From contig JANWWK010000064.1 of NCBI GenBank assembly GCA_025056175.1, positions 1 to 64,000 on the forward strand: a stretch of 64,000 nucleotides of DNA, given 5' to 3'. This DNA comes from Anaerolineales bacterium. Lineage in GTDB: Bacteria; Chloroflexota; Anaerolineae; Anaerolineales; Villigracilaceae. The notes beneath the pieces are model-generated. The model saw nothing but the letters and a program-made list of their open reading frames with translations, was not told where the DNA came from and made no database searches. A program made the position numbers and the translations under genes. Each line of letters opens with the position of its first letter. Positions within the stretch are counted from its first letter, which is position 1. This document shows positions 21,901 to 27,609 of this stretch, piece by piece.

Positions 21901-23046
21901 TCAGGAATACAGTTTCTCCCACGCATCGGTGAGGATATTCCCCAAGACGATGTGCGCCATGCCCTGCGCGGGGAGGACATCGCCGTCGGGTTCAACATAG
22001 AGCCAGGCTTTGCCCGCCCCGGAGGGAACGGCATCGCCCGCGACTTCGAGCGCGACCGGATTGGCGGCCGAATATGGCACGGGCAAGTCGAAAACCAGGC
22101 GCAAGCCCATTTCGCCGGCCAAATCGCGTAGAACGGCCAGTTCCTCGTGCAGAGATTGCTCAGAAATGCTCAAAGACATGGCTTCGATGCCGGCTGCGTG
22201 CAATTTTTGCATTAGAGCCGGTGCGGTTTGCACATTTTTGGGGGTAATGGTCAGGTGGACGGCCAGGAAAATATCGGCCACCAGAGCATTTTGAAGCGCC
22301 TGCCAGTTCGGCTCGCTGCGCGAAGGCAACACTATCATCAGGTGGTCCAGGCCGGTTTGCAGCAGAGTATCCAGGTATTCTTTTTGGGCCAGTTTGTGAC
22401 CATCGGTGAGCAGGCCGCAGACCTGACCGTTCTTTTCAGCGCGCGCAATCAGGTCGGGCAGGTCTTCGCGCAAGGTGGGTTCGCCGCCGGTAAACACAAT
22501 GTGCGGTACGCCATAAGCCCAGACCTTATCGAGAATGCTCAACCACTCTGCAGTCGTGAGTTCCCGTTCGACCCGTTTTTGGGGCGCATCGAACGGGTCG
22601 GCACCAGGCGGAAGGCGATATGTCAGCGCGCAATCCAGGCGTAACGGGGCGGTCAATTGCGTCGAGTTGGGGGGAACACGCTCGAAATCGAGATACGAAA
22701 TCGGGTCCAGGTCTTCTTTGCGAATAAGCGTTTCGATGCGTTCGATGAAATCCAGGTAATCTTTTTGGGCCTGTTCACGGCGGATGCGGTAACGCGAAGC
22801 AATCTCGCGGGCAGTTTGGACAGGAGAATCGCCGCGAATGAAGTGCAGGGCAAATTCGGCAGCCGTGGGGTTCAGGTGCAAAACAGTGCTGGCATTGACA
22901 ATCAGCAATCCGCTCCCATCCTGGTGCAGACGCAGATGCAGGCGGTAGGGTTGTTTGTCTTCAGGGGGTGATTGGTAATGATACATGGCTGCCGGAAGCG
23001 GCTGAACAGGGGTGAAAAACGTCTTGATGCGCTCGAACAGGTTCAT
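21901..23046 (-). CDS. PqqD-fused radical SAM paralogue without cluster cysteines (predicted pseudoenzyme)
   Basis: This 381-residue protein aligns along its length with the intact radical SAM enzyme at 24087-25475. It has a PqqD-like peptide-binding domain (about 45-110; LIVNASTVLHLNPTAAEF) and a radical SAM barrel with PHIVFTGGEPTLRED retained (181-195). Where the partner has CNNDCAHC, this one reads LPPGADPF (145-152), so none of the three iron-sulfur ligands remain. The SPASM Cys in the VEPDGDVLP block is also replaced by Ala. Only C139 and C210 are present in the whole protein. It is the last gene of the operon, 13 nt after its neighbour. It cannot be a classical radical SAM catalyst; a substrate-binding or scaffold role is inferred. 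Confidence 0.88.
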   Translation of the reverse strand: MNLFERIKTFFTPVQPLPAAMYHYQSPPEDKQPYRLHLRLHQDGSGLLIVNASTVLHLNPTAAEFALHFIRGDSPVQTAREIASRYRIRREQAQKDYLDFIERIETLIRKEDLDPISYLDFERVPPNSTQLTAPLRLDCALTYRLPPGADPFDAPQKRVERELTTAEWLSILDKVWAYGVPHIVFTGGEPTLREDLPDLIARAEKNGQVCGLLTDGHKLAQKEYLDTLLQTGLDHLMIVLPSRSEPNWQALQNALVADIFLAVHLTITPKNVQTAPALMQKLHAAGIEAMSLSISEQSLHEELAVLRDLAGEMGLRLVFDLPVPYSAANPVALEVAGDAVPSGAGKAWLYVEPDGDVLPAQGMAHIVLGNILTDAWEKLYS

Positions 23047-23059
23047 GAGCTTGCTCCTT

Positions 23060-24082
23060 TTAATGACCGGGCTTGATGTCTTCCAAAAAGAACAGGATGA
23101 AGTAGCCAACCAGCAAAACCAGCCAACCGACCAGCTGCACCAGGTCCAGAAAACCGCTCCAGGTCATCGAAAAATTCTCCTGAATGGTGCTGATAAGGCC
23201 TTGCAGATTATCGAGTTTGTCTTGAATGACCTGTTTCCACTCGTCCAGGTAGAATTCATCCCGGATAATTTTGTAGAGTTTGGCCGTGTACCAATCACCA
23301 ATCAGGAGCAGGTTTTGCTCGGTATGTTCGAATTCCAGTATGATGTCGAGCCGGTGGTTGACGATGCGGCGCAGTGTGGTGCGGGTAGGACCGAAAACAG
23401 AAAATTTGCTCTGCTGAAAGATGCGGCTGATGGTTTGCAGAATGCCTTCAATGGACTGGTTCAACATGCGATAGCGCAGGAGCTGGTAGGTGCCAATTTT
23501 GAGCAATTCCAGTTCGGATTGAAAATCTCCTTCCGGCGAAAAGATAACCGCCCCTTCCCAATCTACCACCGTCAGGTCGCGCTGTGTGTAACGCAAACGC
23601 GAAACGAGCACTTCGCTGATTTCCGTTTCATCTAAAATTTCATGGTGCGAACGAATAAAGCGCGCCAGAGAGTCAGCGTTGGAATCCACAAAGGAATCGG
23701 CGGGGCCAACCGAATCACGCACCATGAGAACGAGATAGGTCTCGAACAGGCCGCTGGTGCGGTATTTCGCAGGCAAGAAGCGTATTTGCAAGGCTTCTTC
23801 GATACGCTGGCGTTTCTGGATGGAACCCAGGCTGAGCGGGTCGGGCAGGTGAAAACGGCATTCCAACATCTGCACGCGCTGTTCGTAGCGCTGGCGGGTG
23901 ATGTTCAGCGGCACACCTTCGAGGCTCACGGTTTCTACCCCAAGTGTGTAGACGCGAATATCTACCGGCTGGAAGTAGGGGGCATCCTTCAGCCCGGTGA
24001 CCGGTTCGGCAAACGATTTGCCATCCGCCTCATCAGGAAAGGCCAGCAAGAAGCAGATTTCGGAATGTATCAAGGAACTCAT
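23060..24082 (-). CDS. Membrane-anchored protein resembling the RMD1/YagE (DUF155) family
   Basis: This is a 340-residue protein. The C-terminal part has the layout of RMD1/YagE proteins: a region around DWEGAVIFSPEG, helical segments ending DKLDNLQGLISTIQENF, then one C-terminal transmembrane helix (LVQLVGWLVLLVGYFILFF) and the tail LEDIKPGH. This likeness is by eye and tentative. The start ATG at 24082 lies 4 nt after the stop of the radical SAM gene and has no ribosome site of its own, so translation is probably coupled. It sits between the active and the degenerate radical SAM genes, so it is a likely part of the same system. Its biochemical function is unknown. Confidence 0.75.
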   Translation of the reverse strand: MSSLIHSEICFLLAFPDEADGKSFAEPVTGLKDAPYFQPVDIRVYTLGVETVSLEGVPLNITRQRYEQRVQMLECRFHLPDPLSLGSIQKRQRIEEALQIRFLPAKYRTSGLFETYLVLMVRDSVGPADSFVDSNADSLARFIRSHHEILDETEISEVLVSRLRYTQRDLTVVDWEGAVIFSPEGDFQSELELLKIGTYQLLRYRMLNQSIEGILQTISRIFQQSKFSVFGPTRTTLRRIVNHRLDIILEFEHTEQNLLLIGDWYTAKLYKIIRDEFYLDEWKQVIQDKLDNLQGLISTIQENFSMTWSGFLDLVQLVGWLVLLVGYFILFFLEDIKPGH

Positions 24083-24086
24083 GAAA

Positions 24087-25475
24087 TTATGGCGCTGGTT
24101 GAGCAACGTTCTTGGGGAACAAAGGAGCAAATTGCAACGGACAGCCGCCACCACATTCCGCCAGTAAGGCACAACCTTCACACTTGATGGGTAAATTTTG
24201 TCGTTCGCGCAGGGTCACAGCCAGGGGATGATTCCAAAGCGCGTCCCACGTATCGCGCAGCCAATTTCCCAAGGGACGGTAGTAGGACTGGCAGGGGAGA
24301 ACATCGCCGTTCGGTTCGATGCAGAGATTGTACTGCGCTGCTGTACAGCCTTTTACGCCCAGTTCCATCTGAACAGGGTCGAAGCGGCAGTATTGGGTGG
24401 GCGTGTACCAGATGAGTTTCTGCCCATGTGCTGCGGTCTTTTGGCGGGCAATTTCTAACAATGGTTTCAACTCTGCTTCGGGCAGCCCCGTCCCAACAGC
24501 AGCGCCCTTGCCAGCATAAATAAGCGCATTCAAGCCCACCGTTGGCACGCCCAAATCGGCCAGAAAATCGAGCGTCGCCGGAATGGTGTGGGCATTGGTG
24601 GTCAGCATGGTGGTATTGGTCATAACGAACAGCCGGGTCTGCAGAGCGTTTTGCAGGCCGCGCAGGGTCTGGTCAAAGGCAGCGGCGCGCACCATCTGGT
24701 TATGAATTTCTGGTTCGCAGGATTCGAGGGTGATTTGCACATGGTCGAGACCAGCCTGGACAAGTTTCTCCACATAACGCGGGTCGCTCAGGCGGCGTCC
24801 GTTGGTATTCAGGCCGGTGATTTGTCCATTGGCTTCGGCATAAGCAATCAGTTCGGGCAGGTCTTCGCGTAAAGTCGGCTCGCCGCCGGTAAAAACGATG
24901 TGCGGAATGCCCAGAGACCAGGCTTTCTGGATGACCTGTTTCCAGCGGTCAGTATCCAGTTCGCCCTTCGCCCTCATTCCCGACCCTTCTTCCGCGGAGA
25001 GAACCGGATGTTCCAGGTTGTAGCAATGGGCGCAATCGTTGTTGCAGCGATACGTCAGTGCCAGGTCGAGACGGTAGGGCGCCGAAGGACGCACACTGAA
25101 CGGCGGCACGGTTTCCAGGTTGAGCTCATGCACCGGACAGGCGCCATCGGGGCGCAGCAGGTTAGCAAGTTGAACGTGAAACGTCGCAAGGTCCGATTTC
25201 AGGGTCTGGTGGTCAACCTTCCAACGGCTTTTTATTTCTTTGCGAATGTCGTCGTCAGGTTTGCCATCGAGCGTCAACTTCGCCATGAGCGCGGCGGTGG
25301 GGTTCAAGTGCATGATGCGGTTGGCATTGACAATCAGCGTGCCAGTTCCATCCACATCAAGGCGCAGGTGAACGCGCGCTTTCTCGCCGGGTTGCTCAAT
25401 CAGGTAGTGATACAGTCCCGGTTTCGAGTTTGGAATTTCAGATTTTTGCTTGAACCAACCAGAAAACATGTTCAT
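24087..25475 (-). CDS. PqqD-fused radical SAM/SPASM peptide-modifying enzyme
   Basis: This 462-residue enzyme begins with a PqqD-like recognition domain (about 35-108; LIVNANRIMHLNPTAA). The radical SAM barrel follows, with the [4Fe-4S] motif C144-NND-C148-AH-C151 and the SAM-binding GGE at 197-199. A SPASM-type C-terminus has Cys at 363, 377, 385, 395 and then the exact CX2CX5CX3C pattern at 432, 435, 441 and 445, which would hold auxiliary clusters. Enzymes of this type install thioether or carbon-carbon links in ribosomally made peptides. The ATG at 25475 follows an AGGT site; a second ATG lies two codons on. The gene upstream encodes a protein with a Cys-Ala tail, the obvious candidate substrate. 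Confidence 0.92.
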   Translation of the reverse strand: MNMFSGWFKQKSEIPNSKPGLYHYLIEQPGEKARVHLRLDVDGTGTLIVNANRIMHLNPTAALMAKLTLDGKPDDDIRKEIKSRWKVDHQTLKSDLATFHVQLANLLRPDGACPVHELNLETVPPFSVRPSAPYRLDLALTYRCNNDCAHCYNLEHPVLSAEEGSGMRAKGELDTDRWKQVIQKAWSLGIPHIVFTGGEPTLREDLPELIAYAEANGQITGLNTNGRRLSDPRYVEKLVQAGLDHVQITLESCEPEIHNQMVRAAAFDQTLRGLQNALQTRLFVMTNTTMLTTNAHTIPATLDFLADLGVPTVGLNALIYAGKGAAVGTGLPEAELKPLLEIARQKTAAHGQKLIWYTPTQYCRFDPVQMELGVKGCTAAQYNLCIEPNGDVLPCQSYYRPLGNWLRDTWDALWNHPLAVTLRERQNLPIKCEGCALLAECGGGCPLQFAPLFPKNVAQPAP

Positions 25476-25529
25476 TTTGATACCTGTCAAGCCACTCAAG
25501 CATCGAAAATTGTCCATCATCAGGCCAGA

Positions 25530-27197
25530 TTAACGCCCTCCGCCCGCACAGGCGCAGGCGCACCCGGCACAGGCGCAGGCACAGGCGCAGCCTCCGCCGC
25601 CAGAGCGATAACTGCCTGAACGCGAAGGCGGCGGGGGTGGGTTAGTGACTTTGGTGACCGATTCGGCAAAGCCACCGCCCAGCACCCGTTGGGCAAAATT
25701 CTGTGTGCCAGTCACAATAGAAGCCGCCAGTTCAGCGCCGGGCAAAGAGCGCGGGGAAGCAGATGGAAAAGCAGGTGGGGTAGATGGAGCAGATGGGGTA
25801 GATGGCAGCGAGGTGCGATAGACGGGGTCGTAGCGTCCCCACCAGGTCGGCACGTAGATGGGCCCGGTAAATATGCGCCGCGCGCGGTCATCATAGTCCT
25901 TATCCAGCATCGTCCACTCGAGGGTTTCTTCGAGCATCTGGCTTTTCACTTCCGGCGTTCCAGCAGATTCGATTTGCTTCCAGGCTTTTTCATTGATGGC
26001 TTTGTAATACTCGATGGTCTCTTTGCCGCTAAACCCTTTCATCTTCTCTGTGACGCTCTTAACCAGCCGCACAGTCATGTTTCGTAACAGTTCACGCCGT
26101 TCGCTCAAGTTGGGACGGCGAAAGGCTTCCAGAAAGTCTTTTTCGTATTCGCGCAAGCCTTCGGGCAGGGGTTCGACAATGGAAAGTTCCAGCGGGTCAC
26201 GTTTTTCGACCTGTGCCGCGCCTTTCTTGACCACGCCAAACAAAATCATTTGCATCACCTTTTCGAGCGGTTGCCCCATCAAAATTGCCGCTTCAACCGC
26301 CGTCAGACCGCGCTTGATGCCGTGTCCTTCAATCGAAATTTTTGGGGGGATGTATTGTTTCTTGCGGCGCTGTTCCTGCACGGCCGTCAGAACAGGCAGC
26401 CCGAAGAAAAAGAGCCCAAAGCAGCAAAACGACAGAAGGTTAGTCACCACACCGAACACCCATACGATTGCGCCAAGCAGCAAATCCAAGAACGTCGTGC
26501 GGACGATGGCATCTTCAGGCAAATATCTGGCCGGATACGAAGCTCCAAAGGTATATTGAGTGTAACCGTTGGCCTCTGCACTGCGCCAGGTATAGGTTAC
26601 CCGGCCTTCGGCATCAAACCCAAAAGCGGGTTCGGCTGCGCCCGGCCAGTTGCGGGGAGGGTGGTAACGCGGTTCATCTGCCGTTACCCCCTGCGGCAGG
26701 TGAAAAGTCACCGTCAAATCGGTTTTGCCGCTGACGTATTCCGACCCGAACCAGGTGGGAGAAAATTCGCCACTGGCATAGGTCTCATCCTGAGAGTCAG
26801 GATAGTACATGCGCTCAATTTTGCCGATGAAGACATGCACCGTGCCGGCTTTTCCGGGCGGAATGGCCTGCGCACCGAGTTCGACCGCCACGCCATAGGC
26901 GCCGTCGCCTTGATAATCGGTGGTGACCCGAACAGGGACACCACCAACATCCGCGCTGATGGTCTCAAAGGAATAACTGCCGTTCGGTAAGCCCACATCT
27001 ACGAAATCAATCGGGCTGGCGCCTGGGTCGTTCAGGAAGGTGAATTGATAATCTACCGCTACTGTGCCATCGTTGTTCCAGTAAACATGCACTACTTCCT
27101 GCGGGAGTTGGAAACGGTAAGTCTGCGCCGCGGCACTGCTGGAAAGGCCAAACACCAGAGCGCAGGCCAGAAGGAAGGCCAGAATACGATGTTTCAT
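25530..27197 (-). CDS. DUF2207-like membrane protein with Cys-Ala repeat tail (candidate modified substrate)
   Basis: The protein has 555 residues: a signal peptide (1-24), an extracytoplasmic beta-rich domain (about 25-230) like the DUF2207 N-terminal domain, a long hydrophobic stretch (235-273) followed by the basic segment QEQRRKKQ, then a cytosolic domain and a Pro/Ser-rich spacer. The last residues are GGGG followed by CACACACAGCACACAGGGR (537-555), with seven Cys at 537, 539, 541, 543, 546, 548 and 550. Positive charges after the membrane segment place the tail in the cytosol, where the adjacent radical SAM enzyme would meet it. It lies 13 nt after the zinc-ribbon gene and 54 nt before the radical SAM gene. 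No function is known to me. Confidence 0.88.
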   Translation of the reverse strand: MKHRILAFLLACALVFGLSSSAAAQTYRFQLPQEVVHVYWNNDGTVAVDYQFTFLNDPGASPIDFVDVGLPNGSYSFETISADVGGVPVRVTTDYQGDGAYGVAVELGAQAIPPGKAGTVHVFIGKIERMYYPDSQDETYASGEFSPTWFGSEYVSGKTDLTVTFHLPQGVTADEPRYHPPRNWPGAAEPAFGFDAEGRVTYTWRSAEANGYTQYTFGASYPARYLPEDAIVRTTFLDLLLGAIVWVFGVVTNLLSFCCFGLFFFGLPVLTAVQEQRRKKQYIPPKISIEGHGIKRGLTAVEAAILMGQPLEKVMQMILFGVVKKGAAQVEKRDPLELSIVEPLPEGLREYEKDFLEAFRRPNLSERRELLRNMTVRLVKSVTEKMKGFSGKETIEYYKAINEKAWKQIESAGTPEVKSQMLEETLEWTMLDKDYDDRARRIFTGPIYVPTWWGRYDPVYRTSLPSTPSAPSTPPAFPSASPRSLPGAELAASIVTGTQNFAQRVLGGGFAESVTKVTNPPPPPSRSGSYRSGGGGCACACACAGCACACAGGGR

Positions 27198-27210
27198 CGC
27201 GCTGCTCCCT

Positions 27211-27609
27211 TTACCATTTGGGTTCTTCGGTCAGTTGATACGTCGCCTGGCAGTAGGGACAGGTCACCACCGGCGCACCAGCCATAATTTTGATGTCGTT
27301 GGAGGTAATGGGCCCGCCGCAAGACTGGCATTTCATTTGGGAGACTTTCGTTTCGCCAGGTAAATCCACTTTCATCGTCACCTGTTGAACGACCTCGGTC
27401 TTTTGCCCGCGCATGCCCATCCACACCAGCCCGCCACCGCCTGCAAAAAAGAGCAGAGAGAGACAAACGAAACCGATTCCAAACGTCAACCAGTTGGAAC
27501 TGCCGCTCTGGGCGGTGGAACCAATCAGAAGCAGCGCGCCATAGCCAAGCAAGCACAAACCAATCAGAAACAAAAGCGCCGCGCCGATGAATGCTGCTGT
27601 CTTTCCCAT
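27211..27609 (-). CDS. Small membrane protein with C-terminal zinc ribbon
   Basis: This is a 132-residue protein with two transmembrane helices (about 8-30 and 42-66) and a C-terminal zinc-ribbon-like domain with Cys pairs at 94/97 (KCQSCGGP) and 117/120 (TCPYCQ). It has a strong AGGAGG ribosome site and is the first gene of the radical SAM operon, directly behind a good promoter. Its role is unknown; in this context it might deliver metal or contact the Cys-tailed protein, but that is only inferred from position. Confidence 0.82.
   Translation of the reverse strand: MGKTAAFIGAALLFLIGLCLLGYGALLLIGSTAQSGSSNWLTFGIGFVCLSLLFFAGGGGLVWMGMRGQKTEVVQQVTMKVDLPGETKVSQMKCQSCGGPITSNDIKIMAGAPVVTCPYCQATYQLTEEPKW

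Follow-up and report, generated by a model that had tools for sequence, protein, structure and literature searches.

The operon and its five genes

The 64,000-nt stretch of DNA analysed here (the window; contig JANWWK010000064.1 of an Anaerolineales bacterium, phylum Chloroflexota) carries five open reading frames (ORFs) on the minus strand at 21901-27609, lying in the order A-B-C-D-E with intergenic gaps of ~13, 54, 13 and 13 nt. An initial annotation, made from the letters alone, had read these genes as a single-strand operon that pairs an active and an inactive radical S-adenosylmethionine (SAM) protein with a membrane protein ending in a Cys-Ala repeat, and the ORF coordinates bear out the five-gene arrangement and its order. 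Strong comparative support suggests that the enzyme encoded by C acts on the Cys-Ala tail of the protein encoded by B.

Gene B (25530..27197, minus strand, as for all coordinates in this section) encodes a 555-aa membrane protein, in which sequence, alignment and predicted structure delimit a signal peptide, a beta ectodomain (residues ~27-228), a transmembrane region (~236-272), a helical cytosolic domain (~282-450), a linker and the Cys-Ala tail. The C-terminus of the window protein reads ...GGGGCACACACAGCACACAGGGR, of which residues 537-555, CACACACAGCACACAGGGR (25533..25589), form the tail proper, with 7 Cys and 7 Ala, and constitute the proposed modification site. Gene C (24087..25475) encodes a 462-aa enzyme of PqqD/RRE - radical SAM - SPASM architecture, with Pfam matches to PF04055 (E=1.8e-28), PF13186 and PF05402 above cut-off, as the initial annotation had proposed. 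Its PqqD-like (RRE) domain, the putative binder of B near the tail, spans residues 49-104 (25164..25331), its CxxxCxxC radical SAM motif residues 144-151 (25023..25046) and its SPASM region with the auxiliary-cluster cysteines, delimited by PF13186 and alignment, residues 377-445 (24141..24347). Gene E (21901..23046) encodes a 381-aa PqqD - radical SAM protein with a truncated SPASM region and no cluster-binding cysteines.

The other two genes are less readily assigned. Gene A (27211..27609) encodes a 132-aa membrane protein with two N-terminal hydrophobic stretches; its C-terminal CxxC...CxxC module agrees with the zinc ribbon proposed for it earlier, and all Pfam zinc-ribbon matches are sub-threshold. 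Gene D (23060..24073) encodes a 337-aa protein with a C-terminal hydrophobic segment and no assigned family; it has no NCBIfam match, and the RMD1/YagE (DUF155) label first attached to it is unsupported by Pfam, which returned a spurious match alone (E=0.13). The DUF2207-like label given to B likewise fell away, as B matched neither PF09972 nor PF20990 and each of these models matched 1/24 homologues below the gathering score. No NCBIfam equivalog fitted any of the five proteins. Two further elements of the initial annotation, a single promoter and a metG terminator, were not recovered: no sigma-70-like promoter was detected upstream of A, and terminator-like matches did not rise above those in shuffled sequence. 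The locus was also considered as a defence system and rejected, since PADLOC reported for C and E only a partial similarity to the viperin radical SAM domain, of the kind expected of any radical SAM protein, and nothing for A, B or D.

The Cys-Ala tail is maintained at the protein level

Full-length relatives of B occur throughout the order Anaerolineales, and the same tail, with slight variation in repeat number, ended B in all of the first 30 relatives (30/30). Across 24 aligned B proteins from Bacteria and Archaea, the last 19 residues averaged 94% identity to the window protein, as compared with 35% in the ectodomain and 40% in the cytosolic domain. The alternating alanines of the tail were as invariant as its cysteines in this alignment, and plain CA tails, from Bacteria and Archaea alike, contained as many Cys as Ala (7+7 in the window, 6 to 8 elsewhere). 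Archaeal tails containing VS have slightly fewer Ala than Cys; those of Bathy- and Thermoproteota read CVCACAxCACACACVSCACACAGGG. The GGGR end of the tail is conserved.

At the DNA level, the last 15 tail residues are CACAGCACACAGGGR in 47/48 related loci and differ by a single residue in the remaining one, and each of the 48 loci encodes them with a different DNA sequence. Third codon positions were 45% identical on average, while one first position varied and no second position did. Because 48 different DNA tails encode a near-identical peptide, the tail is maintained at the protein level, by strong selection. The same observation, together with the confinement of the tail to the C-termini of related membrane proteins, rules out a chance or low-complexity origin, and the contrast between third positions and the nearly invariant first and second ones rules out a microsatellite.

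The tailed protein and the radical SAM enzyme occur in the same genomes

With presence thresholds for B and C fixed before the result was known, B was found in 46 of 61 relatives from the order and C in the identical 46, both being absent from the identical 15. A profile search of a phylum sample of 221 genomes likewise placed B and C in the identical 14 genomes and found them jointly absent from the other 207. The probability of identical sets, by a simple count uncorrected for kinship, is 1.4e-14 for the 61 genomes and 2e-22 for the 221. Joint absences are scattered and fall within genera that otherwise have both genes (g1, g3 and g9). Homologues of B that were common in genomes lacking the radical SAM gene, the pattern named by the initial annotation as telling against its proposal, were thus seen in neither sample.

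The nearest relative preserves the order metG - A - B - C - D - E, and most others have A-B-C-(D)-E, with A immediately upstream of B in most relatives. D, present in 7/38 relatives' loci, is missing from most homologous operons, and zinc ribbon A and E are the only consistent operon neighbours of B-C. Clustering of neighbours returned lineage-local ones only, and the largest cluster probably arose artefactually from off-frame translations of the tail. No peptidase or exporter family recurred among the genes linked to the operon, unlinked genes lying beyond this view. The five-gene set is one local arrangement, whose core is the tailed protein and the radical SAM enzyme, usually with the zinc ribbon.

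Several loci depart from or add to this layout. A short, apparently PAS-like protein is encoded near the operon in twelve Anaerolineales loci (e.g. L052:4480-4980), and a small cysteine-containing protein in seven (e.g. L059:12024-12533), which by eye resembles the C_GCAxxG_C_C family. At L065:3063-6195, and also in L171 and L190, a C-type enzyme adjoins a tail-less B-like cytosolic half, while a tailed B and E lie on the opposite strand; the C-type enzyme of L065 bears its own GGGGCSGCSGSCG stretch near its end.

Tail-enzyme pairing recurs across Bacteria and Archaea

A DNA scan of GTDB species genomes for the coding sequence of CACACAGGG returned at least 117 stretches, with tailed proteins in at least 10 phyla, several archaeal groups among them. 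Among the matches listed, the bacterial hosts comprise Anaerolineales, Lachnospiraceae and other Clostridia, Pirellulales, Zixibacteria, Aminicenantes, Coatesbacteria, Armatimonadetes and Krumholzibacteria, the archaeal hosts Heimdall-, Hodar- and Sigynarchaeota, Bathyarchaeota, Thermoproteota, Thermoplasmatota, Methanomassiliicoccales and Methanocella, and the named isolates Ornatilinea apprima, Leptolinea sp. HRD-7 and Gemmiger formicilis. Chance DNA matches (L101, L123, L124, L135, L145 and L165) came with neither scaffold nor enzyme and serve as internal controls.

For 88 of the 110 tail-bearing ORFs among these listed matches, a C-type enzyme lay within 2.5 kb on the same strand. Thirteen of the remaining 22 were cut at the stretch edge on the expected enzyme side, and seven were checked genome-wide; the rest are the second tail of L130, with an enzyme 160 nt off on the other strand, and L145, probably a chance match. 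Six of those seven assemblies, all but L187, hold a strong C elsewhere, and a strong copy was found in 11/12 of all assemblies checked genome-wide. C precedes B in Clostridia and B precedes C in most other lineages, and since the order differs in this way, the linkage does not reflect one inherited order and has been kept through rearrangement.

The bodies that carry the tail differ as well, so that the pairing recurs with differing gene order and body domains across both Bacteria and Archaea. Clostridial proteins have a transmembrane segment, a zinc ribbon and the tail, followed by a conserved AGCSxKDFY extension. The ectodomain was detected by profile in most of them and in the short Krumholzibacterial and Aminicenantes proteins, even though these are without the cytosolic domain of the long form. 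In 14/15 genomes of a sister family in the same class, the B-type protein ends instead in the repeat (CHSA)n (HSACHSACHSACVHDACHSACVHDAC...), in which nearly every Cys follows an Ala. A C-type enzyme (298-359 bits) adjoins this tail in 10 of the 12 loci read, the other two being cut on the enzyme side. The repeat has changed while the enzyme family was retained, as expected of a substrate.

Two contigs carry duplicated components: on a Lachnospiraceae contig (L130), two tailed genes on opposite strands flank a single enzyme, and a Clostridium contig (L127) holds two B-type and two radical SAM genes.

C resembles sactisynthases and E has lost its cluster ligands

Cys144, Cys148 and Cys151 of C are invariant in 24 homologues. 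The nearest relative of solved structure by profile is the sactisynthase SkfB (E=8e-37), followed by PqqE and SuiB and, more distantly, CteB. NCBIfam equivalogs for peptide maturases gave C a best score of 116 against a cut-off of 500, and the Clostridial, Asgard and Krumholzibacterial enzymes likewise fell below.

E matches the radical SAM and PqqD domains above the Pfam cut-off and is without CxxxCxxC. In 41/41 E proteins, none of the three radical SAM cysteines and no SPASM cysteine remains, whereas the TGGE motif is retained in 41/41. Judged from these residues, E is a catalytically dead paralogue, so that the pairing of an active with an inactive radical SAM protein noticed initially is real and conserved. 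Its description as cysteine-less holds for the cluster positions; the protein has two cysteines, at residues 137 and 208. A second radical SAM paralogue without CxxxCxxC is also encoded in Pirellulales, Armatimonadetes and some Chloroflexi, and by its sequence a dead partner is thus found in at least two arrangements. Many systems, in Clostridia and archaea, showed no dead radical SAM paralogue nearby.

Predicted structure and topology of B

A sequence search found no homologue of known structure for B. The AlphaFold2 model comprises a beta ectodomain predicted with confidence, a region of membrane helix and a cytosolic domain made of helices (mean predicted local distance difference test score 80.6, predicted template modelling score 0.47). 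A fold comparison likens the ectodomain to the N-terminal domain of M1 peptidases and ribophorin I, from which no clear function follows. At L246:691-3393 (G253:C13), a tail-less B-type ectodomain is fused between a Ser/Thr protein kinase domain and another domain that is presumably formylglycine-generating-enzyme-like, both domains having been recognised by eye; this fusion hints that the B ectodomain may be a sensor.

Apart from a signal peptide, most B homologues contain a single hydrophobic segment, with 3-6 K/R after it. Because a single transmembrane segment precedes these basic residues, the tail is placed inside and is probably cytosolic. The cytosol is the compartment in which a radical SAM enzyme works.

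A proposed modification of the tail and its alternatives

We consider it likely, with a probability of roughly two in three, that the operon is a post-translational modification system in which C crosslinks the cytosolic Cys-Ala tail of B through thioethers and the tail works while attached. By analogy with its family, C would use its PqqD (RRE) domain to bind B, probably on the linker that immediately precedes the tail, and would apply 5'-deoxyadenosyl radical chemistry to the tail. The likeliest products would be thioethers that join Cys sulfur atoms to carbons in the Ala residues, which match the Cys in number; up to seven could form in the window protein, each with the loss of 2 H. E, which keeps the RRE and the SAM-loop motif, would most likely partner C or B in a binding or scaffolding role. 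The modified tail could then act on B as a rigid, thiol-capped or metal-binding module and may link the outside domain to a cytosolic response.

Several observations weigh against this proposal. The tail is disordered in the AlphaFold2 model. The hydrophobic stretch of the window protein is longer than that of most homologues and can be read as one or two helices, of which the model draws two, and for this reason its topology is taken from the homologues. The Clostridial assembly L187 (G451) has an intact tail and no detected C-type enzyme, which makes it the sole exception found, although the assembly may be incomplete. Most genomes in the comparison are metagenome-assembled. CxC repeats also suit metal binding without any crosslinks.

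The last point leads to an alternative that we regard as unlikely, in which the tail is a metallothionein-like ligand of a metal or cluster with functional free thiols, and C makes another change or alters one or two residues. Repeated CxC is typical of metal-thiolate proteins, and zinc ribbons occur beside or inside the tailed protein. Bufferins, which are enzyme-modified Cys-rich peptides, are reported to be able to bind copper (PMC12452194). Metallothioneins proper are small, soluble metal-binding proteins with CxC repeats; the repeats are present in B, which is neither small nor soluble. Pure metal binding, however, would not need an invariant alternating Ala, the Cys:Ala pairing recurs in the (CHSA)n tail and the tail is strictly paired with a thioether-type radical SAM enzyme. 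A C-terminal core, an RRE-fused enzyme and the conserved GGGR end would fit a true ribosomally synthesized and post-translationally modified peptide (RiPP), cleaved after modification and released as a small peptide, with the B body as leader, anchor or delivery device. This seems to us less probable still, as no peptidase or exporter recurs in the operons, the predicted orientation has the tail facing the cytosol, Clostridial tails run on into the conserved AGCSxKDFY segment, and the B body, ectodomain included, is conserved and greatly exceeds the usual leaders in size.

The tail might instead bring C, and E where present, to the membrane as a docking, redox or sulfur-relay element, with C acting on something else. 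Only zinc ribbon A and E are consistent neighbours, and a substrate could be encoded elsewhere; nevertheless, we hold this explanation to be very improbable. The tail is the most conserved part of B and switches its Cys repeat while paired with the same enzyme family, as a substrate would, and RRE-SPASM enzymes with Cys-rich partners normally modify them (PMC8172795).

Extending the proposed crosslinking of the attached tail to all lineages gives a wider picture, which we put forward only tentatively: an ancient pan-prokaryotic system in which a dedicated RRE-radical SAM enzyme would knit Cys-Ala or Cys-His-Ser-Ala repeats into an attached polycyclic thioether module, possibly of radical-made lanthionine or sactionine ladders. 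This module would transmit or gate a transmembrane signal, with a pseudo-radical-SAM partner in Anaerolineales and some other bacteria.

Significance and comparison with known systems

To our knowledge, nearly all examples of radical SAM chemistry on peptides concern small secreted peptides, together with a few enzyme subunits. The probable substrate proposed here is a cytosolic end of a membrane protein common to many bacterial phyla, gut Lachnospiraceae, Methanomassiliicoccales and Asgard archaea. Neither Pfam nor NCBIfam has a family that names the tailed protein, and no family model names the enzyme; we found no description of the system in the open-access literature, nor any paper there on Ornatilinea and radical SAM, and an earlier description elsewhere is possible. 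If the tail is indeed crosslinked, these results suggest a widespread, apparently undescribed protein modification. Radical SAM modification of ribosomal products is a known kind of chemistry, and there is a real chance that this is a new class of membrane-protein modification, which would give access to a class of RiPP-like modifications integral to resident membrane proteins. The cultured hosts Ornatilinea apprima, Leptolinea sp. HRD-7 and Gemmiger formicilis make the system directly testable, and E offers a conserved, naturally dead radical SAM partner for study.

DUF2207 proteins have an outside beta domain, a membrane segment and a Gly-rich C-terminus, a layout similar to that of B, and single homologues of B give sub-threshold matches; neither a Cys-Ala tail nor a linked radical SAM enzyme, however, is among the features that define that family. 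In the TIGR04133-TIGR04134 pair, a radical SAM/SPASM protein is genetically paired with a membrane-attached lipoprotein, but C-type enzymes score far below the TIGR04133 cut-off (82.5 vs 425 bits for the Clostridial enzyme).

Closer in architecture are SkfB, AlbA, RumMC2 and TrnC/TrnD, which share the RRE - radical SAM - SPASM/Twitch layout with C and make Cys thioethers, including thioethers to Ala in RumC, whose acceptors are Ala and whose donors form a Cys-x-Cys pair (PMC6779426). TrnC and TrnD, like C and E, are two paralogues; they form a complex through their RREs, and only the radical activity of TrnC is strictly required (PMC12093266). E differs from TrnC/TrnD and from the other sactisynthases in having lost every cluster cysteine. 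Substrates of sactisynthases are small secreted peptides, and sactipeptide and ranthipeptide precursors are short peptides made up of a leader and a core, whereas the Cys repeat here, the predicted substrate, ends a 555-residue membrane protein. Ranthipeptides and SCIFF peptides (CteB, PapB) likewise combine many Cys in a C-terminal core with a SPASM enzyme, and CteB is a distant match to C; unlike B, their precursors are small, have no membrane scaffold and carry Cys-Asp/Glu or S-Cbeta/gamma links. In acting on a protein rather than a free peptide, the enzyme proposed here would resemble QhpD, a radical SAM/SPASM enzyme that forms several thioethers in QhpC, the gamma subunit of quinohemoprotein amine dehydrogenase (PMC8172795). 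QhpC, however, is a small enzyme subunit with Cys-Asp/Glu crosslinks, whereas the candidate substrate here is a Cys-Ala repeat on a membrane protein found across Bacteria and Archaea.

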